Assembly: GCF_004353825.1 (NCBI RefSeq)
Contig: NZ_SMNA01000003.1
Coordinates: forward strand, 434,001 to 498,000
Direction of reading: 5' to 3'
Source of the DNA: Occultella glacieicola
Lineage (GTDB): Bacteria > Actinomycetota > Actinomycetes > Actinomycetales > Beutenbergiaceae
DNA: 64,000 bases
A program made the translations under genes and the position numbers. Numbering within the stretch: position 1 is the stretch's first letter; every line of letters starts with the position of its first letter. Shown piece by piece: positions 28,707-47,476 of this stretch. The notes below the pieces were generated by a model that saw only the letters and a list, made by a program, of their open reading frames with translations, did not search any database and was not told the origin of the DNA.

Positions 28707-29597
28707 ATGCGTGGCATCATCCTCGCCGGTGGGTCCGGCACCCGCTTGCACCCGATCACCCTCGGGTCGAGCAAGCAGCTCCTGCCGGTCTATGACAAGC
28801 CGATGATTTACTACCCGCTGTCCACGCTGATGCTGGCCGGGATCCGGGACGTGCTGGTGATCACCACCCCGCACGATGCCGAGCAGTTCCATCGCCTCCT
28901 CGGCGACGGCTCGCAGTTCGGGATCTCGATCTCCTACGCGGTCCAGGAAGTCCCGAACGGGCTCGCCCAGGCGTTCGTGCTCGGTGCGGACTTCGTCGGC
29001 ACCGACTCGGTGGCGCTGGTGCTCGGGGACAACATCTTCTACGGTCCGGGCCTCGGCATCACCCTGGGCCGGTTCCGTCAGATCGACGGCGGCGCCGTCT
29101 TCGCGTATCGCGTCTCGGACCCGACGGCGTACGGCGTCGTCGAGTTCGACGGAGACGGTCGTGCGCTCTCTCTGCAGGAGAAGCCCGAGCGGCCGCGGTC
29201 GAACTACGCGGTCCCGGGCCTGTACTTCTACGACAACGACGTCCTCGAGATCGCCGCCGACCTGGAACCTTCCGCGCGTGGTGAGTATGAGATCACGGAC
29301 GTGAACCGGACGTACCTCGACCAGGGCCGCCTCCAGGTGGAGGTCCTGCCGCGGGGCACGGCCTGGCTGGACACCGGCACGTTCGACTCCCTCCTGGAGG
29401 CATCGGACTTCGTTCGCACGATCGAGCGCCGGCAGGGCTTGAAGATCGGGGCCCCGGAGGAGATCGCCTGGCGCATGGGTTTCCTCGGCGACGACGACCT
29501 GCGTAAACGTGCGGACCCGCTACGGAAGTCCGGCTACGGCGACTATCTCCTCAGCCTCCTCGACATCGCAACCGAGGAGCGCCGCTTGGAGGGGTGA
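28707..29597 (+). CDS. rmlA: Glucose-1-phosphate thymidylyltransferase
   Basis: 296 residues. The nucleotidyltransferase signature [20 protein letters not shown] opens the protein at residues 6-25, followed by [31 protein letters not shown] and [19 protein letters not shown] follow. RmlA makes dTDP-glucose from glucose-1-phosphate and dTTP, the first step to dTDP-L-rhamnose. It is the first gene of the polysaccharide locus, with rmlC directly downstream and rmlB about 14 kb away. Confidence 0.97.
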
Positions 29598-29683
29598 CCG
29601 CCGTCGACCCGGGCGGGCTGGCGCGGTCTCGATAGCATGGCGTGCCGCACCAGCAGCCACCCTCGAACGAGTTGGAGACACCG

Positions 29684-30301
29684 GTGAACCTTCGCGAGTT
29701 GTCCGTGCCCGGAGCGTGGGAGATCACACCGACGCTGATGGGTGACCCGCGTGGTGTCTTCCTGGAGTGGTTCAAGGACGAGCGGTTCGTCGAGACCGTC
29801 GGGCACTCCCTCGACCTCAAACAGGCCAACTGCTCGGTCTCGGCCGCCGGCGTCCTGCGCGGGATCCACTTCGCGGATGTACCACCGTCTCAGGCCAAGT
29901 ACGTCACCTGTGCCCGCGGAGCCGTTCTGGACGTCGTCGTCGACATCCGGGTCGGCTCGCCGACCTTCGGACAATGGGACTCGGTCCTTCTCGACGATGT
30001 GGATCGTCGCGCCATCTACCTAAGCGAGGGCCTCGGCCACGCGTTCCTGTCCCTTGAGGACGACTCCACCGTGCTGTACCTGTGTTCGGCCGGCTATGCA
30101 CCGGGACGCGAACACGGCGTCCATCCGCTCGATCCGGCGATCGGGATCGAGTGGCCCACGACGAGCCGGACCGGCGCGCCACTGACCCCGCTGCTGTCGG
30201 AGAAGGACGCCGCCGCCCCCAGCCTGGCGCAGGCGCAGGCGCGGGGACTCCTGCCCGCCGCTGCGGTCGTCCAGGAGTTCCTCGCGTCCCTGACCACCTG
30301 A
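29684..30301 (+). CDS. rmlC: dTDP-4-dehydrorhamnose 3,5-epimerase
   Basis: 205 residues, cupin fold. The catalytic base is His62 in LRGIHF, the same number as in characterised RmlC enzymes. GLGHAFLSLEDDSTVLYLCS and DPAIGIEWP are family stretches. RmlC inverts C3 and C5 of the 4-keto sugar made by RmlB. GTG 29684 (MNLRELSVPG) is preceded by GGAG, so I prefer it over GTG 29642. The rhamnosyltransferase begins 1 nt after the stop. Confidence 0.93.
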   Translation: MNLRELSVPGAWEITPTLMGDPRGVFLEWFKDERFVETVGHSLDLKQANCSVSAAGVLRGIHFADVPPSQAKYVTCARGAVLDVVVDIRVGSPTFGQWDSVLLDDVDRRAIYLSEGLGHAFLSLEDDSTVLYLCSAGYAPGREHGVHPLDPAIGIEWPTTSRTGAPLTPLLSEKDAAAPSLAQAQARGLLPAAAVVQEFLASLTT

Positions 30302-35452: not shown

Positions 35453-36457
35453 ATGACGCCATCCTCGCCTGACGCCGAACCGGCGGTACCGCAGGAAGCA
35501 GGCCAGGACAACCACCCTCGGCTCAGGGTCGCGGTGCGGGTCGTGGGAATCGTGGCCGCAGTGGCGGCGCTGACCCTGTGCACCATCGCGCTGGTCGACT
35601 CCTGGTCCACCGTCTCGACGGCGGTTGCCTCCGCCGATCCGCGATGGCTCGCGCTCGCCCTCCTCGCGAGTGCGGCGTCGATGGTCGGTCTGGCCGTGTT
35701 GTGGAAGCGCACGTTGACGACGTTCGGTGCCGTACACCCGATCCGCGAGGTCTCGAGCTGGTACTTCGTGGGCGAACTTGGCAAGTACATCCCCGGCGGC
35801 ATCTGGCCCGTGGTCGGTCGGGGGGAACTGGCCGCTCGGGCCGGCGTGTCGCGGGGCCTCGCCTACACCAGCACCCTGCTCTCACTCGCCCTGATGTGCG
35901 TGGGCGCCGCTCTGGCGTCCGGACTGTTGGCGCCTTTCCTCGCCGCCGACGGGGGTCGGGTCGGGCCGGAGATGGCGCTGCTGGTTCTGGTGCCCATCGG
36001 AGTGATCTGTGCCCATCCGTCAGTGTCAGGACGGATGCTGGCCCTACTCGATCGGTTCACGAAGGGGCGCGTCCGGGTCGCCGCACCACCGTTCCGGACG
36101 ATGCTCTCGCTGATCCTGGGTGCCGTTCCCACCTGGCTGCTCGTCGGCGCGGCCTCGGTGGCGGTAACGCAGGCCCTGGGATACGAGCAACTCCCGGCTC
36201 GGATCGCGTTCGCAGCGATCGCTGCCTGGATCGTCGGATTCCTCGCAGTTCCGGTCCCCGCCGGCGCGGGTATCCGCGAGATCCTGTTCGTGGCGATCTC
36301 GGGTCTGGAACCCGGACCCGCGGTCGCCGTGGCCGCGATCGCGCGCCTCCTGCTGATGGTCGTCGACGCCGGAGGCGGTATTCTGGGCCTGCTCTGGCTC
36401 CGAGCAGCGCGCGGACCGCAGACCCCCACTCCCCCGGAAGGCGGCTCGGTTGAGTAA
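35453..36457 (+). CDS. LPG_synthase_TM/UPF0104 family membrane protein
   Basis: 334 residues with eight or so transmembrane helices. WYFVGELGKYIPGGIWPVVGRGELAARAGVSR is the family signature (quoted part: ELGKYIPGGIWPVVGRGEL). FLAVPVPAGAGIREILFVAI is the second conserved block. The family includes the flippase/transmembrane part of lysylphosphatidylglycerol synthase and AglD-like glycan proteins, here without a soluble domain. In this locus it may help lipid-linked intermediates cross the membrane. It overlaps the next gene's TTG start by 8 nt. Confidence 0.78.
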   Translation: MTPSSPDAEPAVPQEAGQDNHPRLRVAVRVVGIVAAVAALTLCTIALVDSWSTVSTAVASADPRWLALALLASAASMVGLAVLWKRTLTTFGAVHPIREVSSWYFVGELGKYIPGGIWPVVGRGELAARAGVSRGLAYTSTLLSLALMCVGAALASGLLAPFLAADGGRVGPEMALLVLVPIGVICAHPSVSGRMLALLDRFTKGRVRVAAPPFRTMLSLILGAVPTWLLVGAASVAVTQALGYEQLPARIAFAAIAAWIVGFLAVPVPAGAGIREILFVAISGLEPGPAVAVAAIARLLLMVVDAGGGILGLLWLRAARGPQTPTPPEGGSVE

Positions 36458-37175
36458 CCTGCCCTACCTGGTCAAGAGCACCTATGCGAAGGCCATGCGC
36501 GCCTCGGGGCGGTTGTTGACGAGAGCGAAGATCCTTGACGCCGAGCCGCCGGAACGCAGCAGACGCCTGCAGCACTGGGCGTACAGCCTCACTCGGGTCC
36601 ATGACTCGCTGGCCATCGTCGACCTCGGGGTGCCGTGGTGGACCTATGACGCGATCGACCACATCGAACAGGTTCTGACGTCGCGCGATGGCGATGTTCG
36701 GGTCTTCGAGTACGGCTCCGGCGCCAGCACGTTCTGGTTGGCCGAGCGAGCCCGGGAGGTTCACTCCGTGGAGCACCACGTGGGGTTCGCCGCGAGGATC
36801 GGTCCCGAACTGGCCACGCTCGACGACGTCACTTTCCATGTCGTCGAGCCTGAGCCGTCGAAGCAGCCGGCGATCGGTTCGTCGAAGTCCGGAAACGCCG
36901 GTCTGGACTTCCGGGCGTACGTGGCGACCATCGACGCGGTCGGGGGCCTCTTCGACGTGGTGGTGATCGACGGCCGCGCGCGTGCTGCCTGCCTGGAAGC
37001 CGCCATTCCTCACCTGGTGGATGACGGCATCATCATTTTCGACAATTCTCGGCGTCGCAGGTATCGCACGGCCATTGAACAGTCTGGATTGCGAGAGGCC
37101 CGGTTCACGGGCCTCACCCCGACGTTGCCCTATCCGGAGCAGACGTCGGTATTGACGAAGCCTGCCCGGCGCTAG
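36450..37175 (+). CDS. Class I SAM-dependent methyltransferase-like protein
   Basis: 241 residues. Motif I is VRVFEYGSGASTFWLAERA (residues about 88-106), followed by VHSVEHH (acidic loop) and LFDVVVIDGRARAACLEAAI, then DDGIIIFDNS. This is the Methyltransf_24-like arrangement found in glycan loci. TTG 36450 has GGAAGG about 9 nt upstream and overlaps the preceding gene. The acceptor is unknown. It ends in a 4-bp convergent overlap with the RgpF-GH99 gene (37172-37175). Confidence 0.75.
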   Translation: MSNLPYLVKSTYAKAMRASGRLLTRAKILDAEPPERSRRLQHWAYSLTRVHDSLAIVDLGVPWWTYDAIDHIEQVLTSRDGDVRVFEYGSGASTFWLAERAREVHSVEHHVGFAARIGPELATLDDVTFHVVEPEPSKQPAIGSSKSGNAGLDFRAYVATIDAVGGLFDVVVIDGRARAACLEAAIPHLVDDGIIIFDNSRRRRYRTAIEQSGLREARFTGLTPTLPYPEQTSVLTKPARR

Positions 37176-39232
37176 GACCGGGCGACGTCCCGGACGGCTT
37201 GGAGGTAGGTGCGCCCGAACCGGTCGGTTGGCTCCAGGATGGCACCCTCGGCCCACTCGTTCCATGCGTTGATGAACACGATCCGTTCCTGTGCGGGTCG
37301 GTGCGCGACGGCGTGGACGCACTCCGCGAGCCAGCGGCGGAACGTGAAGGGGTTGGATCCGTACCAGATATCCGGCCGCCACTGTCGGCGCGCGGTGTTG
37401 TCGAACGTGACCATGACTCCGGGATAGAAGTCGTCCGGCATGGTTCGCAGCTTCTTGATCGCCTCCGTCACGAGGGCGCCATAGCTCATCAGGTTTCCAC
37501 GGAACGCCGGGTCCAGGGACAGACGCTCCGCGGGGCCCGCCACCCAGGACAGGTTGTGCGGGGGAAAGCCGAGTGTTCCGTCCAGTCCATAGTCCGACGG
37601 TTGTGAGGCCAACCCGTCGAACTCCTCCGCCACGTTCACCGAGAGCAGGAGGAGCTCACCGATGCCGGCTGCGCGCGCACGCTCGCGCCAGGTCGCGGCC
37701 ACAGCGGGGAAGTCCGGAATCTGGCCGGGCCGGTAGATGGCCAGCACCGCCCTGCCACTCACACGCAAGTACCGGTGGTCACTCAACAGCGGCGCGACGT
37801 CGTCGATGAACTGCTCGGCCGGGACCTCGTCATAGTTCTGACCGATCAGGACGTCACTGGAGCGGCCGTCCCAGCGTCGGGTCCAGTTCTCGTTCGCCCA
37901 CATCAGGCAGAAGGGTTGTTCGACGTCACCTGCCACGAGCTTGTTCACCGGCAGCTCGAGGAGCTGCCGCCCGGCGAACCAGTAGTGGTAGTACATGAAG
38001 CCGGCGATCTCGTGTTCGGTGGCCAGTTCGCGCTGCTGCTCCCGGACCGCGTCGAGCCGCAGGTCGTAGAAGCCGAGCTCGGTCGGGAACCGGGGCTGGT
38101 GCTGCCCGCGATACACGGGTCTGGCCGCCGTGACGTTCGTCCACTCGGTGAAGCCCTTGCCCCACCAGATGTCGTTCTCCACGGTGGGATGGAATTGGGG
38201 CAGGTAGAACGGCACGAACCGGGCGGCCGGGGTGCGTGTGGTGGCGAGGGCGAATCGTGCCCACGCGTCCTCCGGTGCCTGTTGCGCGTGGAGCCGACCG
38301 GAGTCCTCGACGGTCAGGCCGGCCTCTCGGGTGAGGATCCCGATCGAGCGTTCCAGTGCATGCGCCGTGGTGCCGTCGATGTGGGAGGCGTGCTCGTCCT
38401 CGAAGTCGACGGCGGTCAGGTTCAAGGCCCTGAGGCCCTGCAGCACGAATGCCTTCACCCAGTACATCGAGCCGGCAGCGAACCGAAGGTCGTCGTGGAC
38501 CACGTCGAACTCGAGCCGACGCAGCAGCTCACGAGTGAGTGGCTCGTCCGCGCCCCAATGCTCCGGCCCCATGACGTTTCCCTCGGCCGTCATCAGACCG
38601 AGGTTCGGATCGTCCGCGAACGCGCTCAGGATCGCCCTGATCCGGTCGCCGTCGCCCACGAGCTCCTCGACGAAACCCGCCCGCCAGGCGTCCCCCGAGC
38701 CCTCGAGATCCGTCCGCGCGGTCCGCCAGGCGCTCTTCTTGGTATGGAGTTTCAGCACGAGTTCGTACGGGTCGAGGATGCCGGCGTTGACGACCTGCAC
38801 GAGAGGAAAGATGTCCCGGCCGCGGTTCTCGGTGTCGAACGAGACGGTGTTGCGCAGCATCGGGGCACTGCACGCATCGAGGTCCAGCGGTCGACCCGAA
38901 CTGTTGGTCACGATCAGGTCGAACTCGACGGGCATGGCCTCCAGCTTGCGCAGGAGTTCGGGCAGCAGTTCGGGGTAGAAGACATGGAGGAGGACCGCGA
39001 CCCGGGATGGCACCTCGAGCGGGAGTTGCGAGTCGACCCGCCAGCTGTCCGGATGTCCCGAGGCCTTGCGGCCGGCGCCCCGACGCAGCCATGCCCCGAA
39101 GTCGACTGCGGCTCGCGCCCCCTCCCCGCCGGGCAGGGTGCCGTCCTGCAGGTAGGTGACCACCACCCCCTTCGCGATCCCGCGGTAGCGCGCCAGCCTC
39201 CGGCGCACGCCGGCGACCGTGATCCGCCTCAT
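37172..39232 (-). CDS. Rhamnan-synthesis-F (RgpF) domain fused to GH99-like WbsX domain
   Basis: 686 residues. Residues about 70-330 match rhamnan synthesis F (VAVLLHVFYPELLPELLRKL, YELVLKLHTKKSAWR, PNLGLMTAEG). Residues about 336-686 match the GH99-like WbsX domain (VPFYLPQFHPTVENDIWWGK, GFTEWTNVTAARP, FINAWNEWAEGAILEP). RgpF-type domains occur in rhamnose polysaccharide assembly in streptococci and others; WbsX domains in many O-antigen and cell-wall loci, where catalytic identity is mostly unproved. Here it follows an RgpF protein and the Wzm/Wzt exporter in the same direction, so roles in building or decorating the exported rhamnan are likely. Confidence 0.88.
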   Translation of the reverse strand: MRRITVAGVRRRLARYRGIAKGVVVTYLQDGTLPGGEGARAAVDFGAWLRRGAGRKASGHPDSWRVDSQLPLEVPSRVAVLLHVFYPELLPELLRKLEAMPVEFDLIVTNSSGRPLDLDACSAPMLRNTVSFDTENRGRDIFPLVQVVNAGILDPYELVLKLHTKKSAWRTARTDLEGSGDAWRAGFVEELVGDGDRIRAILSAFADDPNLGLMTAEGNVMGPEHWGADEPLTRELLRRLEFDVVHDDLRFAAGSMYWVKAFVLQGLRALNLTAVDFEDEHASHIDGTTAHALERSIGILTREAGLTVEDSGRLHAQQAPEDAWARFALATTRTPAARFVPFYLPQFHPTVENDIWWGKGFTEWTNVTAARPVYRGQHQPRFPTELGFYDLRLDAVREQQRELATEHEIAGFMYYHYWFAGRQLLELPVNKLVAGDVEQPFCLMWANENWTRRWDGRSSDVLIGQNYDEVPAEQFIDDVAPLLSDHRYLRVSGRAVLAIYRPGQIPDFPAVAATWRERARAAGIGELLLLSVNVAEEFDGLASQPSDYGLDGTLGFPPHNLSWVAGPAERLSLDPAFRGNLMSYGALVTEAIKKLRTMPDDFYPGVMVTFDNTARRQWRPDIWYGSNPFTFRRWLAECVHAVAHRPAQERIVFINAWNEWAEGAILEPTDRFGRTYLQAVRDVARS

Positions 39233-39242
39233 CTGTCCTCAC

Positions 39243-40073
39243 CTACAGCCACTCGTCGATCTCCTCCCCGTAGGTCGCCCGGACGACGTCGACGATCGTG
39301 TCCGTGTCCGGACCGGTCGAGGGATCCGTGATCAGGGTTCGCTTGACGAAGGGGAGACCGCTCAGTAGCAGGGGGCGCCACGCCGCGAGGGTCGGGTTGA
39401 CCGCGTCCGGCGTGAGGTCGTGGGAGCGGAACCGGCAGGTGAGCGCATAGCCGGCGGAGACACAGGCACGGCTCAGGCCGAGTTCGTAGCGCCGAACGAC
39501 GTCCATCTTGGTCGCTTCCACCCGGATTCCGCGGAAGAAGTCGCGCAGGGGCGCCTCGGCCAAGATGCCGCGCCGGAAGCCGACGAAGTAGCTCTGGAAG
39601 TGGTGGCCGATCTGCCAGGAGTCGGTCATCGTCCACACGTCCGCGCCCGTGGCCTCGTAGTCCGCAATCAGTGGGCCGATCGAGGCGAAGGGACCGACCA
39701 TCGAGTCGTTCGTCAGGACCACGTGGTCGAGGCCGGCTAGGTGGGGAAAGGTGTCAAGCCCAACGGACCAGGACCCGAAGTCGTAGCCGAGGTTTCGCCG
39801 CCGCGCGACCGCGACACCGACCGGCGGGGGCATGGACCAGAAGAGTTCCGCGTCGTGCGGCGCAGTCGAGATCACGAGGCACGTGTATCCGTGCTCGACG
39901 AACTCGCGCAAGTACTCGGTCAGGGATCGACACACCCGGCCGTCCGGACTGTACTGCGCGACGATCGCGACCTTCTTCGCCGCTGCGAGGACCTCGGACG
40001 CCCCCGGATCCAGGCGAACCTCGCCACCGGGGCCGGCGAGGACCCGTGGCCGCTTTGCGCTGAACAGTCCCAC
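39243..40073 (-). CDS. Rhamnan synthesis F family protein
   Basis: 276 residues. VAIVAQYSPDGRVCRSLTEY, RRNLGYDFGSWSVGLDTFP and VVLTNDSMVGPFASIGPLI are RgpF family blocks, and KMDVVRRYELGLSRACVSAGY closes the domain. It is a single-domain counterpart of the N-terminal half of the next protein, so the locus has two RgpF modules. GTG 40073 follows the methyltransferase stop by 2 nt, and the RgpF-GH99 gene starts 10 nt after its stop: one operon. Confidence 0.87.
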   Translation of the reverse strand: MGLFSAKRPRVLAGPGGEVRLDPGASEVLAAAKKVAIVAQYSPDGRVCRSLTEYLREFVEHGYTCLVISTAPHDAELFWSMPPPVGVAVARRRNLGYDFGSWSVGLDTFPHLAGLDHVVLTNDSMVGPFASIGPLIADYEATGADVWTMTDSWQIGHHFQSYFVGFRRGILAEAPLRDFFRGIRVEATKMDVVRRYELGLSRACVSAGYALTCRFRSHDLTPDAVNPTLAAWRPLLLSGLPFVKRTLITDPSTGPDTDTIVDVVRATYGEEIDEWL

Positions 40074-40075
40074 GA

Positions 40076-41365
40076 TCAGCGGCTCATCCGCCGTCGGACG
40101 GCACGGATCGGTGCCGTCAAGCGCCAGGACACCGATCCGCGCATCAGACGGATCTGTTCCCAGCTCTCCAGTACTCGACCGTTGGCCGAGGACAGTTCCG
40201 ACTGCAGCCGCTCCAGCTCGGCGTTGGTCTGGACGGACTCCTGCCGCATGCGCTGTAGGGCCAGCCTCGCGCTGCGGTCGTTCTCGATGGCCTCGGTCGC
40301 CGACCGTTCAGTGGCCCGTCCCATCTCGTCTCGGAGCGCGGCGACCTCGCCGCGGATCGCTTCCAGTTCCGCCTGGAGTTGGTCGCGTGACGCAAGCGCG
40401 TCGGCAAGGTAGGACTCAGCGAGCCGGTCCGAGCGAAGGTAGGACGAACTTCCCGCCACCTCGCTGAACGGACGGAAACGCTCCGCCTTGTCGAGCACCA
40501 CCACGGAGTCGTAGACGTGCAGACCGTCGAGGTGCGTCGCCCAGATCGACCTACGGTCGATCGCCGCGTCGTATCGGGCGTGCTCGTCGTCGACGCGGTC
40601 CTTGACCCACTCGATGAACGTGCCCGCACGCTTCCGGCCGCCTTGGTAGTAGTCCCAGTACGAAGTGTGGCAGTCCTCGACGATGAAGGTGCCGCCATCC
40701 AACATGAGCGGGAACATCGTCTCGGCTGTGACGATCTGCTGTGCCATGGTGTGACCACCGTCGTCGATGACGATGTCGAACGGCCCGTGCTCGGCGTTGA
40801 CACGGCGCAGCACCTCCGGGTCCTCCTGGTCACCGAGCTCGACCAGGTAGCGGCCGTTGACGGCGCGGACGGCAGCCTCGTCGACGTCGAGGCCGACCAC
40901 GGTCGCCTCAGGTCCGAAGTACTGCTGCCACATATCGAGGCCGCCCCCCCGATAGACACCGATCTCAAGGACACGGACCGGCGTACCCCGATGGCGTTCG
41001 AGGTGGCGGTGGTACACCGGGAAGTAGTGGATCCACTTGTCGAGGATGGCGCCCGAGCGGTGCGCGAGGTAGTGCGCATACAAAGGGTTCGATGCCAGCG
41101 CCTCGGCGCGGCCGGAGAAATAGAACGCGGCTCGGTAGCACTCGTTCGCGTGGTCATGGGGCAACGCATGATCCCGGAACACGTCACCGAGTGCTCGGGC
41201 CCTGTCGGCCGCCGTCGCCGTGACGAGGGCCGCAGCCAGGTCCGCCCTGATCTCGTCTGCCGGCGCCCAGTTCGCGGTCAGCGCCGCCATCGCCCCGTCG
41301 GCGTCGTCCATCGAGAGCAGGAACAACGCCCGCGAGACGTCAGCCAGTTCAACGTGACCCGTCAT
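40076..41365 (-). CDS. SAM methyltransferase with C-terminal coiled coil, WbdD-like organisation
   Basis: 429 residues. Residues about 75-290 are a class I methyltransferase (motif I VRVLEIGVYRGGGLDMW, then VVGLDVDE, IVIDDGGHTMAQQI, FIVEDCHTSYWDYY). Residues about 318-410 form a long coiled coil (ELEAIRGEVAALRDEMG, LERLQSELSSANGRVLE). The C-terminus is a basic amphipathic end SWRLTAPIRAVRRRM, a tail common in glycan enzymes. AAGGACG precedes ATG 41365, which overlaps the wzt stop by 4 bp. A chain-terminating methyltransferase acting as a length ruler is inferred from the coupling to Wzt; no kinase domain is visible, unlike E. coli WbdD. Confidence 0.8.
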   Translation of the reverse strand: MTGHVELADVSRALFLLSMDDADGAMAALTANWAPADEIRADLAAALVTATAADRARALGDVFRDHALPHDHANECYRAAFYFSGRAEALASNPLYAHYLAHRSGAILDKWIHYFPVYHRHLERHRGTPVRVLEIGVYRGGGLDMWQQYFGPEATVVGLDVDEAAVRAVNGRYLVELGDQEDPEVLRRVNAEHGPFDIVIDDGGHTMAQQIVTAETMFPLMLDGGTFIVEDCHTSYWDYYQGGRKRAGTFIEWVKDRVDDEHARYDAAIDRRSIWATHLDGLHVYDSVVVLDKAERFRPFSEVAGSSSYLRSDRLAESYLADALASRDQLQAELEAIRGEVAALRDEMGRATERSATEAIENDRSARLALQRMRQESVQTNAELERLQSELSSANGRVLESWEQIRLMRGSVSWRLTAPIRAVRRRMSR

Positions 41366-42624
41366 GCTCGTCCTTCCACCGGTGCCGACGGTTCGGCACT
41401 CCACCGTCCGATCATCCGGGTGAGGCCGGGCTCCCGCACTGCGTGGTCGGCGCGCACCCGCAGTTCGGTCTCGCGGTCCGAGTAGTCGTAGGTGTGGCCC
41501 TTGTCCACGATCGCCGTGCTGATGCTGAAGGCTCCGGGCTGGAGAGGGAATGCGGCACTGTGGAAGTCGATGAAGCCCTCTCCGGGCTCGACGTCATAGG
41601 TGCGGTCGTTCTGCATCGAGTTCGGACCCGCAACCGTGATGCCGGACTCGTGGATGAAGGCCAGCCCGAAGGTCAGTTCGCGTAGAGATCGGGTACTCCG
41701 GTAGTGCACGCGCACGGTGCACGTCTCGCCAGGGGTGACGAATGCGGTCTCGACTCCGGATGCGTCATGGAGCGTCACCTTCGTCATCCGGATCTCGCCC
41801 GAACCCGCGCGCGGCACGGACGGTGCCACGGTAGCCCCGCCATCCGGGTGCGAACCGGCCGCCTCCGCCTCGGCCCGAGACGCCGACTCCTTCGCGTTCA
41901 CGTCGAGCAGGTATCCGTTGATCACTTCACTGACGTCGCCGAGTTCCCGCGGCCGCCCGTGGTCGAGCCAGATGCCCTGGTCGCAGAGTTCGGCCGCGAG
42001 GGTGAGCGAGTGTGTCACGAGGACGATCGTCGTTCCACGACGCCGGAGCTCGAACAGGTGGTCGAAGCATTTGCGCTGGAACTCCTCGTCGCCGACGGCG
42101 ATGATCTCGTCGACGATGAGGATCTCGGGATCCAAGGTCACCGCCACACTGAACCCGAGCCGGACGTACATGCCGGAGGAGTAGACCTTCACCGGCGAGT
42201 CGATGAACTCGCCGATCCCGGCGAAGTCGATGATCTGGTCGATCGACCGGTCGATCTGCTTCTTGGAGAGTCCGAGGATGGCGCCGTTCAGATAGACGTT
42301 CTCGCGTCCGGTCAGTTCACCGTGGAATCCCGCGCCGAGTTCGAGCAGGGCCGAGACCCGGCCGTCGACGAGGACCTGTCCGGCCGACGGTCGGTAGACG
42401 CCGGCGAGGATCTTCAACAGGGTCGATTTCCCCGACCCGTTGTGTCCGATCAGACCGAAGGTGGAGCCCCGGGGCACTTCGAACGAGACGTCCCGGAGTG
42501 CGTGGAAGTCATGGACTCCCGGGGCCTTGCCGCGGACGAAGATCTCCTTGATCGAGTTCCGCCGCTCGGTGTGGAGCCGGAACGTCTTGCTGAGGTGATC
42601 GACCTTGATGGCGACGTCGGTCAC
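41362..42624 (-). CDS. wzt: Polysaccharide ABC transporter ATP-binding protein with C-terminal glycan-binding domain (Wzt)
   Basis: 420 residues. Walker A GHNGSGKST (residues 60-68), signature YSSGMYVRLGFSVA, Walker B ILIVDEIIAVGDEEF and switch His in VTHSLTLA. Residues about 275-405 are a beta-sandwich of the Wzt-C type (RMTKVTLHDASGVETAFVTP, VHYRSTRSLRELTFGLAFI). In E. coli O9a this domain recognises the terminal cap of the O-chain before export. It overlaps wzm and the methyltransferase by 4 bp each, a tightly coupled unit. Confidence 0.94.
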   Translation of the reverse strand: MTDVAIKVDHLSKTFRLHTERRNSIKEIFVRGKAPGVHDFHALRDVSFEVPRGSTFGLIGHNGSGKSTLLKILAGVYRPSAGQVLVDGRVSALLELGAGFHGELTGRENVYLNGAILGLSKKQIDRSIDQIIDFAGIGEFIDSPVKVYSSGMYVRLGFSVAVTLDPEILIVDEIIAVGDEEFQRKCFDHLFELRRRGTTIVLVTHSLTLAAELCDQGIWLDHGRPRELGDVSEVINGYLLDVNAKESASRAEAEAAGSHPDGGATVAPSVPRAGSGEIRMTKVTLHDASGVETAFVTPGETCTVRVHYRSTRSLRELTFGLAFIHESGITVAGPNSMQNDRTYDVEPGEGFIDFHSAAFPLQPGAFSISTAIVDKGHTYDYSDRETELRVRADHAVREPGLTRMIGRWSAEPSAPVEGRA

Positions 42625-43454
42625 AGCGCCTCGCTCAGGTCGCCGCCACGACGCTTCATCACGAACATGGCTCCGCCGAGCGCCGCGATCGTCCAGAGGG
42701 TGACGGCGACCCAGGTGCCGAGGTCACCGGCGGTGAGGTCGTAGATGACGGCACGGAACAGGCCCACGAACTGCGACAGCGGACTGAATTCGACGATCGC
42801 TCGCAGGGGAATGCCGTTCCACGACTCGGGCACGATGTCGGGGTTATAGATGATCGGCGTCAGGTAGAAGAGAAGTTGCAATGCGACCGAAACGAGATGG
42901 GCGAGATCACGATAGTAGACGTTCATCACGGCGACAATGGTCGCAACGGAGCCCGTGAATATGACGAAGAGGGCAAGGACGAACGGCACGAACAACCAGG
43001 TCCAGGACACGTTCCACAGGATGATGAGCACGATGGCGAGGATGCCGAGTTCGATGAGACTCTGGATTCCGACCGCGAGTCCGGCGCCGAGCACCGGCGC
43101 GTACGCCGGGAAGTAGATCTTCTGCAGGAGTGGGCCGCTGCCGAGGAGTGCACCCATGCCGCCGTTCACGCACGAGGCGAAGTAGGACCACAGCACCAGC
43201 CCGCAGAACAACCACACGACGAATACCCCGTCATTGCCGTTTCCCATCGGCGGCGGGACCATCCGGAATACGACAGAGAAGACCAGCGTATAGATCGCCA
43301 GCGTTGCGAGCGGGACCACCAACGACCACGCCCAGCCCAGCAGGGTGCCGTTGAACTTGGCCTTCAGGTCGCGGCGGCTGAAGTTGCTGATGAGATTCCA
43401 TTGTCGCCAGATCGGCACGGACGGCCGGATCTCACGAACGGACTCAGATGTCAC
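42621..43454 (-). CDS. wzm: Polysaccharide ABC transporter permease (Wzm)
   Basis: 277 residues with six transmembrane helices, ABC2-type: FSRRDLKAKFNGTLLGWAWS opens the first conserved block and YLTPIIYNPDIVPESW the second. It is the membrane channel partner of Wzt for moving lipid-linked polysaccharide to the outside. GTG 43454 starts 6 nt after TAGTGT and is probably leaderless. It is the first gene of a five-gene unit running wzm, wzt, methyltransferase, RgpF, RgpF-GH99. Confidence 0.93.
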   Translation of the reverse strand: MTSESVREIRPSVPIWRQWNLISNFSRRDLKAKFNGTLLGWAWSLVVPLATLAIYTLVFSVVFRMVPPPMGNGNDGVFVVWLFCGLVLWSYFASCVNGGMGALLGSGPLLQKIYFPAYAPVLGAGLAVGIQSLIELGILAIVLIILWNVSWTWLFVPFVLALFVIFTGSVATIVAVMNVYYRDLAHLVSVALQLLFYLTPIIYNPDIVPESWNGIPLRAIVEFSPLSQFVGLFRAVIYDLTAGDLGTWVAVTLWTIAALGGAMFVMKRRGGDLSEAL

Positions 43455-43497: not shown

Positions 43498-44607
<1,110 letters not shown>

Positions 44608-44640: not shown

Positions 44641-45498
44641 TCAACGGGTCGCGCGGATCTGGATCCAGGACCGCGCACGCAGGCCGGTGGCGATCGCCCA
44701 CCTGAGCGGGAAGAGATACCACGCCGCGTACTTGCGACGCAGGTACTGTTCAGCACTGCGGTGGTGGGCCCGGATCATCGCGGCCGGCCGCTCCCGCCAG
44801 GACGAGCCCTGGTCGTGAACCACCCGGGCGGTCGGCACATAGACGTTCGACCACCCGGCCCGGGCGAGCCGGTCGCCGAGGTCGACGTCCTCGAAGAACA
44901 TGAAGTAGGACTCGTCGAACCCGCCGACCTCCACGAACGCCTCGCGCCGCAGCAGCAGACAGGCTCCCGACAACCAGCCGGTCTCGTGCTCGACCCCTTG
45001 GTTGTTCTCCTGGGTCTTGAGATAGGCCTTCGTCCACGGGTTGCGGGGCCAGACGTGTACCAGCAACGCATGGCCTGCGCCGGTCCGCAGGGACGGGAGG
45101 GCTCGCGCCGAGGGATACACGGTTCCGTCCAGATTGAGCATTGCCGGACCTAACGCGCCTGCCCGGGGGTGACGCCGCGCCGCCCGGACGAGTTCATCGA
45201 GGGAGCCCGCGACCCACTGGACGTCCGGGTTGGCCAGCACCAACCACTCACCGGACGCACCCGCTGCTCCGCGGTTCGCGGCAGTCCCATAGCCGAGGTT
45301 CGCACCGGTTTCCACCACCGTTGCCCCATGATCGTCGGCCACCCGCCGGGCGATGGCCGGGTCCGCCCCGTTCTCGACGAACACGATCTCCACCGGCACG
45401 GTGCTCGCCGCGGCGAGTGTTTCCATGAAGTCCTCGAGTTCCGCGCCGGGATGGTACGTCACGCAGACGACGCGGATCTCGGGGACGTCGGCGTTCAT
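44641..45498 (-). CDS. wbbL: GT2 rhamnosyltransferase, WbbL-like
   Basis: 285 residues. VVCVTYHPGAELEDFM, VENGADP, NLGYGTAANRGAA and the DxD-type LVLANPDVQW are followed by GWLSGACLLLRREAFVEVGG and SYFMFFEDVDLGDRLARAGW. This closely fits WbbL-type enzymes, which transfer L-rhamnose from dTDP-rhamnose to GlcNAc-pyrophosphoryl-polyprenol and so start linker or polymer assembly. The ATG overlaps the stop of the upstream CDF transporter by 4 bp. The symbol rests on similarity and context. Confidence 0.82.
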   Translation of the reverse strand: MNADVPEIRVVCVTYHPGAELEDFMETLAAASTVPVEIVFVENGADPAIARRVADDHGATVVETGANLGYGTAANRGAAGASGEWLVLANPDVQWVAGSLDELVRAARRHPRAGALGPAMLNLDGTVYPSARALPSLRTGAGHALLVHVWPRNPWTKAYLKTQENNQGVEHETGWLSGACLLLRREAFVEVGGFDESYFMFFEDVDLGDRLARAGWSNVYVPTARVVHDQGSSWRERPAAMIRAHHRSAEQYLRRKYAAWYLFPLRWAIATGLRARSWIQIRATR

Positions 45499-46454
45499 GC
45501 GACGGTCGGGCCACCCGACGGGTCGGACGCGGCGGACGCCGTCGCCGGACGCCGCAGGTCCGGCTCGATGTAGATCGTCAGTTTCAGCGGCACCGACTGG
45601 CGCACGCGCACCTCGGCTGCGTCGATCGCTCGCGCGACCTCCTCGGCGTCATCGTCGCGATCCACCTCGACCTTCGCGGCCACGAGGACCTCGTCCGGCC
45701 CGAGGTGCAGGGTCCGCATGTGGATCACCGAGGTGATGCCGTCCCCCACCACGGCGGCCTCGATGGCGTCCTGGTGCTCGGGCAGGGCCGACTCACCCAC
45801 GAGCATCGACTTCATCTCCAGGGCGAGGAAGACCGCGATCACCACGAGCAGCAGGCCGATCGCGGCGGACCCGATCGCGTCCCAGCGGCCATCGCCGGTG
45901 ATCAGGGTCATCGAGACCCCGAACAGCCCGAACACCAGTCCGAGCAGGGCGCCGGTGTCCTCGAGCAGGATCACCGGGATCTCCGGCGACCGGGACGTCT
46001 TGACGAACTTGAAGATCGGCGTGCGCCCACGCACATGGTTGGCCTCGATCACGGCCGTGCGCAGGGCGAACGCCTCCAGGACGACCGCGATCAGCAGCAC
46101 CACGATCGGCACCCACTGCCACGCGGTGATGGGATGCGGGTCGGAGAACTTGTGCCAGGCCTCGTAGAGGGCGAACAGCCCACCGAGGGAGAACAGGATG
46201 ATCGAGACGATGAACGCATAGACGTACCGGACCCGGCCGTAGCCGAACTGGTGTACCTCGGAGGCCTTGCGCTTCGCACGCTGGCCGCCGATCAACAGCA
46301 GCGCCTGGTTGCTGGTGTCCGCCACCGAGTGGACGGACTCGGCCAACATCGAACTCGAGCCCGTCAGCAGCCAACCGACGAACTTCGCGATCGCGATCCC
46401 GAGGTTCGCGAAGAGTGCGGTGATGACTGCCTTGGTGCCCCCGCTTGCGGCCAT
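45495..46454 (-). CDS. CDF (cation diffusion facilitator) transporter, copy 1
   Basis: 319 residues with about six transmembrane helices and a cytoplasmic C-terminal domain. LAESVHSVADTSNQALLLIG carries the metal-binding H-x3-D of helix 2, and VILLEDTGALLGL the helix-5 Asp. The sequence KASEVHQFGYGRVRYVYAFI is typical of the ZnT9-like branch. Likely exports Zn or a related divalent cation against H+. It is a close paralogue of the next gene, and overlaps the downstream WbbL-like gene by 4 bp. Confidence 0.87.
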   Translation of the reverse strand: MAASGGTKAVITALFANLGIAIAKFVGWLLTGSSSMLAESVHSVADTSNQALLLIGGQRAKRKASEVHQFGYGRVRYVYAFIVSIILFSLGGLFALYEAWHKFSDPHPITAWQWVPIVVLLIAVVLEAFALRTAVIEANHVRGRTPIFKFVKTSRSPEIPVILLEDTGALLGLVFGLFGVSMTLITGDGRWDAIGSAAIGLLLVVIAVFLALEMKSMLVGESALPEHQDAIEAAVVGDGITSVIHMRTLHLGPDEVLVAAKVEVDRDDDAEEVARAIDAAEVRVRQSVPLKLTIYIEPDLRRPATASAASDPSGGPTVA

Positions 46455-46549
46455 GTGTGTCCGTCCCGATCGTTCGTCGTGCACTGCCGCGACGAATGCT
46501 ACCCAATGCCGCAGGTCCCCCAGCGTGGCTGCGTCGGCCGGTCGGGGTC

Positions 46550-47476
46550 TCAGTCGTCGGCGGCGAGACGATGCCGCAGGTCCGCCTCGAGGTAGATCTG
46601 CACCTCGAGCGGCACGGTTGCCCGAATCCGTGCCTCCGCCCCATCGATGGCGGTGGCCACGGCACGGGCATCCGCGTCGGGCGCCACCTCGACCTTCGCG
46701 GCCACCAGGAGCTCCTCGGGTCCCAGGTGCAGCGTGCGCATGTGGATGACCGAGAGCACCCCGGGCCCGGGAATGGCCGCCTCGATCGCGGCCTGGTGCT
46801 CCGGCAACGCGGACTCGCCCAGGAGCAGCGAGCTCATCTCGATCGCGAGGAACACCGCGATGGACACCAGGAGCAGGCCGATCGCCGCGGACCCGATCGC
46901 GTCCCAGCGCCCGTCTCCGGTTGCCAGGGTCATGCCCACCCCGAACAGCGCGAAGACCAGCCCGATCAGCGCACCGAAGTCCTCCAGCAGGATCACCGGT
47001 AGTTCGGGCGCGCGTGACTGGCGCACGAACGCGGTCAGGCCCGTGCTGCCCCTGGCATGGTTGGCCTCGCGGACCGCGGTACGGAAGGAGAGTCCCTCCA
47101 TGACGAGGCCCAGCACCAGGACCGCCACGGGCACCCACCGCCACTCCTCGATCGGGTGCGGGTCGGAGAACTTGTGCCACGCCTCGTACAACGCGAAGCA
47201 CCCACCGAGGCTGAACAGGACGATCGAGACGAGGAACGCGTAGACGTAGCGGACCCGGCCGTAGCCGAACTGATGCACGGCCGAGGCTGCCCGCCGGGAC
47301 CGTCGGCCGCCGATCAGCAGGAGCGCCTGGTTGCCCGAGTCGGCCACCGAGTGCACGCCCTCGGCGAGCATCGAACTCGAACCGGTCAGCGCGTACGCCA
47401 CGAACTTGGTGACGGCGATCCCGAGGTTCGCCGACAGTGCGGCCACGACGGCCTTCGTGCCACTACCCGTGGACAT
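46550..47476 (-). CDS. CDF transporter, copy 2
   Basis: 308 residues. Same layout as the downstream copy: LAEGVHSVADSGNQALLLIG and VILLEDFGALIGLVFALFG, and nearly identical VHQFGYGRVRYVYAF, with the same final beta domain (VIHMRTLHLGPEELLVAAKV). The helix-5 aspartate context differs by Thr to Phe. Tandem duplication with divergence is the simplest explanation. GAGG is 6 nt before ATG 47476. The gap to copy 1 is 95 bp and contains a TAGCAT box on the minus strand. Confidence 0.87.
   Translation of the reverse strand: MSTGSGTKAVVAALSANLGIAVTKFVAYALTGSSSMLAEGVHSVADSGNQALLLIGGRRSRRAASAVHQFGYGRVRYVYAFLVSIVLFSLGGCFALYEAWHKFSDPHPIEEWRWVPVAVLVLGLVMEGLSFRTAVREANHARGSTGLTAFVRQSRAPELPVILLEDFGALIGLVFALFGVGMTLATGDGRWDAIGSAAIGLLLVSIAVFLAIEMSSLLLGESALPEHQAAIEAAIPGPGVLSVIHMRTLHLGPEELLVAAKVEVAPDADARAVATAIDGAEARIRATVPLEVQIYLEADLRHRLAADD

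Follow-up and report, generated by a model that had tools for sequence, protein, structure and literature searches.

Wzm, Wzt and a putative chain-capping methyltransferase with a predicted coiled coil and a shared tail motif in the actinobacterium Occultella glacieicola

How might an actinobacterium end a surface glycan chain that is to be exported by an ATP-binding cassette (ABC) transporter, and could it also set the length of that chain? The question is raised by three consecutive genes in a stretch of 64,000 nucleotides (hereafter the window) from a genome of Occultella, a genus that the NCBI taxonomy places in Ruaniaceae, Micrococcales. All three lie on the minus strand: wzm for an ABC-2 type permease (42621..43454; 277 amino acids (aa), GTG start; PF01061 ABC2_membrane, 4e-12), wzt for an ATPase with a C-terminal carbohydrate-binding domain (41362..42624; 420 aa; PF00005 ABC_tran, 2.8e-21, and PF14524 Wzt_C, 1.3e-21), and a gene for a 429-aa protein (40076..41365) that joins a methyltransferase (MT) domain to a long helix and a short tail. 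With moderate confidence, we read these genes as the terminating and exporting end of an ABC-dependent surface glycan pathway with a methyl cap and a molecular ruler, acting on what is probably a rhamnose-rich wall polysaccharide.

The gene arrangement is compact. As the preliminary description of the locus had stated, consecutive genes overlap by 4 bp, which the coordinates confirm (42621-42624 for wzm and wzt, 41362-41365 for wzt and the MT gene), the second overlap provided that the MT gene starts at the ATG at 41365; its mechanical open reading frame (ORF) begins 39 bases earlier, at a GTG. Directly downstream of the MT gene is an RgpF-like glycosyltransferase gene (39243..40073, minus strand; 276 aa; PF05045, 8.1e-17), followed by one for a two-domain RgpF-WbsX glycosyltransferase (37172..39232, minus strand; 686 aa; PF05045, 1e-34, and PF14307, 1.8e-117), and the order from wzm to RgpF-WbsX is identical in three other Occultella genomes. 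The genome holds a single match to the MT protein and a single Wzt_C match, both at this locus, and one occurrence of a degenerate tail pattern, at the MT. Genes were called with a GC-based caller in the window and as plain ORFs in loci of moderate GC, where the caller failed.

What kind of enzyme is the methyltransferase? Pfam gives Methyltransf_24 (1.8e-6), and the nearest solved proteins found with phmmer, aligned over residues 108-294 (40484..41044, minus strand), are 8ia9 (5.8e-26; listed as demethylmacrocin O-methyltransferase among the sequences and as SpnK among the structures) and MycE (3ssm, 3.3e-25). Foldseek likewise places SpnK and MycE chains first (4e-18 to 6e-13, next protein 7e-7), its ten best rows aligning 250-277 columns where phmmer aligned just residues 108-294. 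The MycE-type family is described as metal dependent, with Asp275, His278 and Asp304 named (PMC9275233). In the Occultella protein D202, H205 and D231 align with MycE chain residues 295, 298 and 324, which a 20-residue offset would link to the named residues, and D202, H205, E230 and D231 are invariant in an alignment of 32 rows (A2). Judged by these matches, the domain belongs with the MycE/SpnK-type metal-dependent sugar O-methyltransferases. Because the family member ThnM1 methylates rhamnose at O-2 (PMC9275233) and the catalytic residues are conserved, there are good grounds to regard the protein as a putative sugar O-methyltransferase active on a rhamnose-like sugar. Further, the rml and RgpF/WbsX genes in the vicinity make a methylated rhamnose end plausible, and rhamnose is a likelier sugar than mannose. 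MycE/SpnK and ThnM1 are alike to the window MT in fold and metal and catalytic residues; they differ in having small-molecule substrates, and the matched chains end shortly past the MT domain. The N-terminal helical domain (about residues 1-102; 41060..41365, minus strand), with seven helices in the AlphaFold model and no Pfam match, appears unlike MycE/SpnK at sequence level, since the alignment begins at residue 108.

The MT had earlier been likened to WbdD, the capping enzyme of Escherichia coli O8 and O9a, and for the catalytic domain this has to be given up in favour of the MycE/SpnK kind. O8 WbdD matches Methyltransf_11/25 and the window protein Methyltransf_24, and an hhalign comparison of the two returned 91 columns of the common S-adenosylmethionine (SAM) fold and no more. 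We consequently rejected WbdD as the true family of the MT domain, which rests on the different Pfam families, and kept it for the architecture. The remark that the WbdD kinase domain is missing was correct, as no kinase match was found with Pfam in the MT protein, which in this respect resembles O8 WbdD.

Does the rest of the protein look like a ruler? In the AlphaFold model (32-row alignment, mean pLDDT 90), the seven N-terminal helices and the MT domain are followed by a helix at residues 314-410 (97 residues; 40136..40426, minus strand), a break and a last helix at 412-427 with pLDDT of 56-71 at the end. The long helix agrees with the coiled-coil stretch proposed earlier at about residues 318-410, and if straight it would measure about 145 angstrom (97 x 1.5). 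Heptad periodicity in the single MT sequence gave z 1.5, with 34 of 500 shuffles as high, and, in the column means over an alignment of 23 rows, z 3.1 (3/500); two other stretches of the protein, used as controls, gave 0.3 and 0.06, and the E. coli coils 4.2 (O9 WbdD, 0/500) and 3.2 (O8 WbdD, 1/500). Because single-sequence values were weak and those of 15 single homologues variable (z from -1.1 to 3.0), the coiled coil is predicted, not certain. The tail (residues 411-429; 40079..40135, minus strand) consists of SVSWRLTAPIR and a basic end. It had been described as basic and amphipathic; basic it is, with a net charge of +6, and its helical moment is ordinary compared with shuffles (z 1.1), so that the amphipathic part of the description is not supported. 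In its general form, the motif in which the coil ends is S-x-S-W-[RK]-x-T-x-P-[LI]-R. Counting from a conserved YDS close to the end of the MT, this motif follows after 128 residues in the window and likewise in O. aeris and O. gossypii, and after 109-143 residues in other tailed loci, a spread that allows, and does not show, species-specific rulers.

The tail provides the link to E. coli. We used the O-antigen loci of strains HS (O9) and IAI1 (O8), whose records name O9- and O8-family transporters and in both of which the order is wzm, wzt, WbdD and glycosyltransferase, as in the window. A profile of 17 tails (16 loci and the window) that contained no E. coli sequence ranked O8 WbdD best of 588 six-frame ORFs of the IAI1 locus (2.3e-5, next 0.51; SRSWRITQPLR) and O9 WbdD best of 571 ORFs of the HS locus (0.008, next 2.1; SRSWRMTKGYR), the best score on the reversed DNA of both (1203 ORFs) being 0.35. 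In both proteins the motif ends the coil, and a membrane-associated helix and a polymerase recruitment site have been reported C-terminal of the coil (PMC11231755). O8 WbdD (ECIAI1_RS10615), called a simple methyltransferase (PMC3482155), is the closest counterpart: it shares the gene order, nearly the length (425 versus 429 aa), a kinase-less MT head, the coil and the motif, and differs in about 105 residues past the motif, in its polymannose and Gram-negative setting and in the Pfam families of its MT. O9/O9a WbdD (ECHS_RS10775) shares the MT, long coil, SWRMT motif and gene order, and differs by its kinase domain, the weaker motif match and a long C-terminal region after the motif. In E. 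coli O9a, coil length sets chain length (PMC5082667, reporting Hagelueken and co-workers). The Occultella gene thus sits, like WbdD, between wzt and the polymerase genes and encodes an extended predicted coiled coil after the catalytic head. Of the likeness to the O9a pieces claimed at the outset, the gene order, Wzt_C and the long helix hold and the MT domain, being of another family, does not.

Is the arrangement kept in relatives? Matches were found in nine of 99 relatives, namely the own genome and three other Occultella, one genome of another family (G035), three with the MT domain only and one (G041) with the tail only. A search for the three-gene order in other Micrococcales had been proposed as a check; the three other Occultella genomes and G035 have the gene order of the window. 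A wider scan of named relatives, with one genome per species, the MT alignment and the peptides DKW[IV]HYF and NE[CA][YF]RAAF as keys, yielded 37 loci, 22 of them (L020-L041) full-length including the N-terminal domain and 15 (L042-L056) with an MT domain and little after it. Among the full-length relatives, from Actinomycetota and Chloroflexi, wzt is directly upstream of the MT gene in 18 of 22; the exceptions are two Cellulomonas loci with wzt after the MT gene, a third with wzt and wzm further on and on the opposite strand, and one locus (L041) whose contig begins at the MT gene. RgpF follows the MT gene immediately in 13 of 22. Sixteen of the loci have the tail and five are without it; in L024, which looks like the G035 locus, it is cut off by a contig end, and another G035 contig carries the tail. 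In the MT-domain-only relatives, both the tail and a Wzm or Wzt match in the fetched stretch were absent (0/15 each). At one full-length locus (L034), RgpF and WbsX-like matches flank the wzm-wzt-MT set on both sides.

Wzt is expected to recognise the cap in a system of this type. Both the ABC domain and Wzt_C (residues 272-403; 41416..41811, minus strand) are detected by Pfam, the structure model has strands from residue 278 on, and its best Foldseek matches are Aquifex aeolicus WzmWzt chains over about 390 columns, so the C-terminal beta-sandwich named in the preliminary description is well founded. The A. aeolicus Wzt domain binds a 3-O-methyl sugar cap (PMC9445017). The two transporters differ in that identity is about 30%, global TM is about 0.5 with rmsd 13-15 and the domains are placed differently; the phmmer alignment of the two Wzt proteins stops short of most of the cap pocket, at chain residue 350, and the window domain alone gave a chance match only against PDB sequences.

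Can the coil and tail exist apart from the MT? A Wzt search of 396 genomes of the order found 34 at 1e-80 or better and eight at 2e-140. Five of these eight carry the MT protein (four Occultella and G035), and three genomes of one family (G041, G342 and G297) have instead a small ORF with only coil and tail between wzt and rgpF (L018:7697-7936, L066:10048-10317 and L067:8251-8526), of 79 codons in G041 and, counted between stops, of 90 and 92 in the other two. Between these two genes there is no room for an MT. No MT domain was found in 16 further ORFs of the three loci, where other MT families or distant genes are possible, and tblastn with seven MT queries gave tail-region matches alone. Wzt_C alone therefore does not imply a methyl cap, and we rejected it as proof of one. 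Nor did we use a possible Wzt_C signature of MT-less loci: one position passed, S327, a serine in 17 of 18 MT-bearing rows and a glycine in each of the three MT-less rows, and the MT-less side consists of just three genomes of one family. The ratio of domain to ATPase identity in Wzt, at 0.60-0.64 in the MT-less loci, lies within the range of 15 MT-bearing loci outside Occultella and Cellulomonas (0.60-0.88), at its low end. LicD genes in two of the MT-less loci and choline-binding-repeat proteins in one were also observed.

Additionally, the coil and tail occur on other proteins. Among 394 genomes of the class, four besides the own reached 1e-100 in a search with RgpF-WbsX, and in all four (L151-L154) coil and tail form the N-terminus of RgpF-WbsX itself. 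At 256-328 codons between stops, the Wzt ORFs nearby could not accommodate the C-terminal domain. Searches with seven MT-domain queries at 1e-3 gave only a tail match in the four loci, and 14 ORFs examined in three of them contained no MT domain. The gene directly behind wzt encodes a sulfotransferase domain in L151 and L154, the two scanned. With the tail as query, 24 of 396 genomes of the phylum, own included, matched at 0.001; 20 tail regions were fetched, covering 22 of 29 non-own places with about 8 kb on each side and less at contig ends, and nine have a Wzt-profile match, eight of these with Wzm too. Domains in 20 tail-bearing proteins (one each from 17 tail regions, and L093, L151 and L153) were methyltransferase in eight, glycosyltransferase-like in 12, one of these matches being under its cut-off, both in two, sulfotransferase in one and none in one. 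One chain (L146:7410-10220) consists of Methyltransf_24, tail, GT2 and GT2, with wzm/wzt-like genes nearby on the other strand; this layout is that reported for Klebsiella O7 (PMC11231755) and, apart from the coil, that of Geobacillus WsaE (PMC2943079). A distant actinobacterium (L145:8352-11255) has wzm, wzt and a methyltransferase (Methyltransf_11) with the tail, and on visual comparison the stretch before that tail looks like E. coli O8 WbdD. Short pattern matches in L079 and L088, lacking the P-x-R part, were taken as chance.

Being encoded in three related loci as a small protein of its own, where an MT would not fit between wzt and rgpF, the coil-plus-tail is more constant than the methyltransferase. 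It is likely a polymerase and membrane dock with exchangeable passengers; on the simplest account, it anchors the polymerase at the membrane and bears its passenger at the far end. Going further, and tentatively, since we put it at a little short of even, the coil with an SW[RK]-type tail may be a widespread docking module of ABC-exported glycan synthesis across Pseudomonadota, Actinomycetota and Chloroflexi, with passengers swapped. Passengers would then be unrelated methyltransferases, sulfotransferases, glycosyltransferases or none, the form of about 80 residues, without a terminator, would act solely as anchor or ruler for the polymerase, and in Occultella the WbdD capping enzyme would have been re-invented independently on a shared dock. 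The Occultella passenger, by analogy with E. coli O8, may be a sugar methyltransferase that caps the chain for Wzt-C.

How could the parts work together? RgpF and RgpF-WbsX, the presumed polymerase, would extend a lipid-linked chain at the inner membrane face. The MT protein would oligomerise through its coiled coil, with the tail lying on the membrane and holding the polymerase, and the MT head up to about 145 angstrom away. Once the free end of the chain reached the head, its terminal sugar (most likely rhamnose, at 2-O or 3-O) would be methylated and growth would stop. The C-terminal domain of Wzt would then recognise the capped end, and export would follow through Wzm, so that length control and export would both depend on the cap.

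Among known systems, the Gram-positive Geobacillus stearothermophilus offers overlapping wzm, wzt and wsaE genes (PMC2943079), and its S-layer rhamnan has a 2-O-methyl rhamnose end and predicted Wzm/Wzt export (PMC2943079). WsaE differs in being a single chain with an MT and two rhamnosyltransferases, whereas in the window MT and glycosyltransferases are encoded by separate genes. In Klebsiella pneumoniae O4, O7 and O12, the terminator is at the far end of the coil and glycosyltransferases are fused or separate (PMC11231755); these terminators have other activities and are set beside the window by description only. The coil-terminator strategy has been called widespread (PMC11231755), and the text of that paper contains neither 'SWR' nor 'actinobacter'. 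Literature searches limited to open-licence PMC texts listed no actinobacterial case, which does not establish absence, and five tail strings occur in no paper of that collection.

Several observations weigh against the capping and ruler reading. In vitro, methylation by WsaE does not depend on chain length (PMC2943079), which cautions against taking a ruler for granted. The single MT sequence shows a weak heptad signal, the tail match to O9 WbdD is modest and the quality of the Wzt model is middling (mean pLDDT 75). The distribution is patchy, with the MT gene absent from all 20 genomes of other genera of the own family. The division into 22 and 15 loci rests on a scan with two peptides, one of them in the N-terminal domain, and common descent of the loci means that counts are not independent events. 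Five loci of Blastococcus, Modestobacter and Klenkia (L033, L036, L037, L039 and L040) keep wzt and the MT gene together without the tail, which is therefore dispensable for keeping the MT behind wzt. RgpF or WbsX matches were absent within 8 kb downstream in four of them (L036, L037, L039 and L040), and L033 has both. The three genomes with the stand-alone coil-tail lack the MT and all keep Wzt_C. Finally, of 26 fetched loci with a more distant Wzt (1e-82 to 1e-101), 25 are without the tail by pattern, the other (L093) having a tail-bearing protein that does not adjoin wzt.

The MT might instead decorate internal sugars of the chain, or the adaptor, without forming an end cap, coil and tail just keeping it near the membrane and the glycosyltransferases. 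MycE-type enzymes do methylate sugars on finished molecules (PMC9275233), and RgpF/WbsX loci exist with coil-tail and no MT relative, so methylation is optional. Against this stand the tight linkage to wzt and the gene order shared with the E. coli capping systems, and also the four loci in which the polymerase carries the coil-tail: neither a Wzt C-terminal domain nor a relative of the MT queries was found in these, a joint absence that would follow if each served the other. This rule of co-occurrence is broken by the three loci with a stand-alone coil-tail. We regard internal decoration as unlikely, while deserving weight. It is also conceivable that coil and tail form a general scaffold that brings passengers to a membrane complex without measuring, chain length being set elsewhere. 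The variety of passengers in the 20 tail-bearing proteins suits such a scaffold, and stand-alone coil-tail proteins have nothing to place at a far end; as coil length does set chain length in E. coli O9a (PMC5082667) and the YDS-motif distances across tailed loci are compatible with species-specific rulers, we consider a scaffold without measuring rather improbable. That the enzyme is a natural-product sugar methyltransferase standing behind wzt by chance, which we considered for its likeness to the macrolide and spinosyn enzymes MycE and SpnK, its nearest solved relatives, was rejected on the neighbourhood and is hardly credible given conservation over two phyla, the 4-bp overlap, a tail that MT-domain-only relatives lack and no natural-product genes among the neighbours scanned.

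The surroundings of the locus fit sugar donor supply. Divergent from wzm is rmlB for dTDP-glucose 4,6-dehydratase (43612..44607, plus strand; TIGR01181, 5.8e-137, above cut-off), and further away are genes for an RmlA-like nucleotidyltransferase (28707..29597, plus strand; PF00483, 3.3e-75), for which the name rmlA is putative, and an RmlC-like dTDP-4-dehydrorhamnose 3,5-epimerase (29642..30301, plus strand; PF00908, 7e-60). The best NCBIfam match of Wzm was the galactan exporter Wzm, far under its cut-off. Between wzm and rmlB there are no genes in the window; another Occultella (G001, L012:12396-15288) has a 705-aa Amidase_2 protein and a 257-aa ORF there, and the gap in G002 is similar in size to this insertion. 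A second Methyltransf_24 protein (36450-37175, 241 aa), whose gene converges on the RgpF-WbsX gene, is conserved in three other Occultella loci. At 45495-47476 there are two tandem paralogous membrane-transporter-like ORFs, about 73% identical as compared through relatives, which may be of the cation-efflux kind. A scan for promoters and terminators found 0 and 3, with 0.5 and 2.4 in shuffles, and PHROGs matches were limited to a methyltransferase and ABC-transporter or unnamed entries.

Coil-bearing terminators are already established; as far as we have seen, novelty lies in the MycE-type head, in the actinobacterial setting and in a tail motif that serves as a common mark. If the capping and ruler reading is true, capping and length control by a coiled-coil ruler would extend to actinobacterial wall glycans, where the methyltransferase comes from a different family, and the short tail motif would help to detect and classify such systems in genomes. 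Comparison of the natural versions among relatives (those with the MT, those with a bare coil-tail protein, those with coil-tail on the polymerase and those lacking the tail) would allow the parts played by cap, ruler and dock to be told apart.

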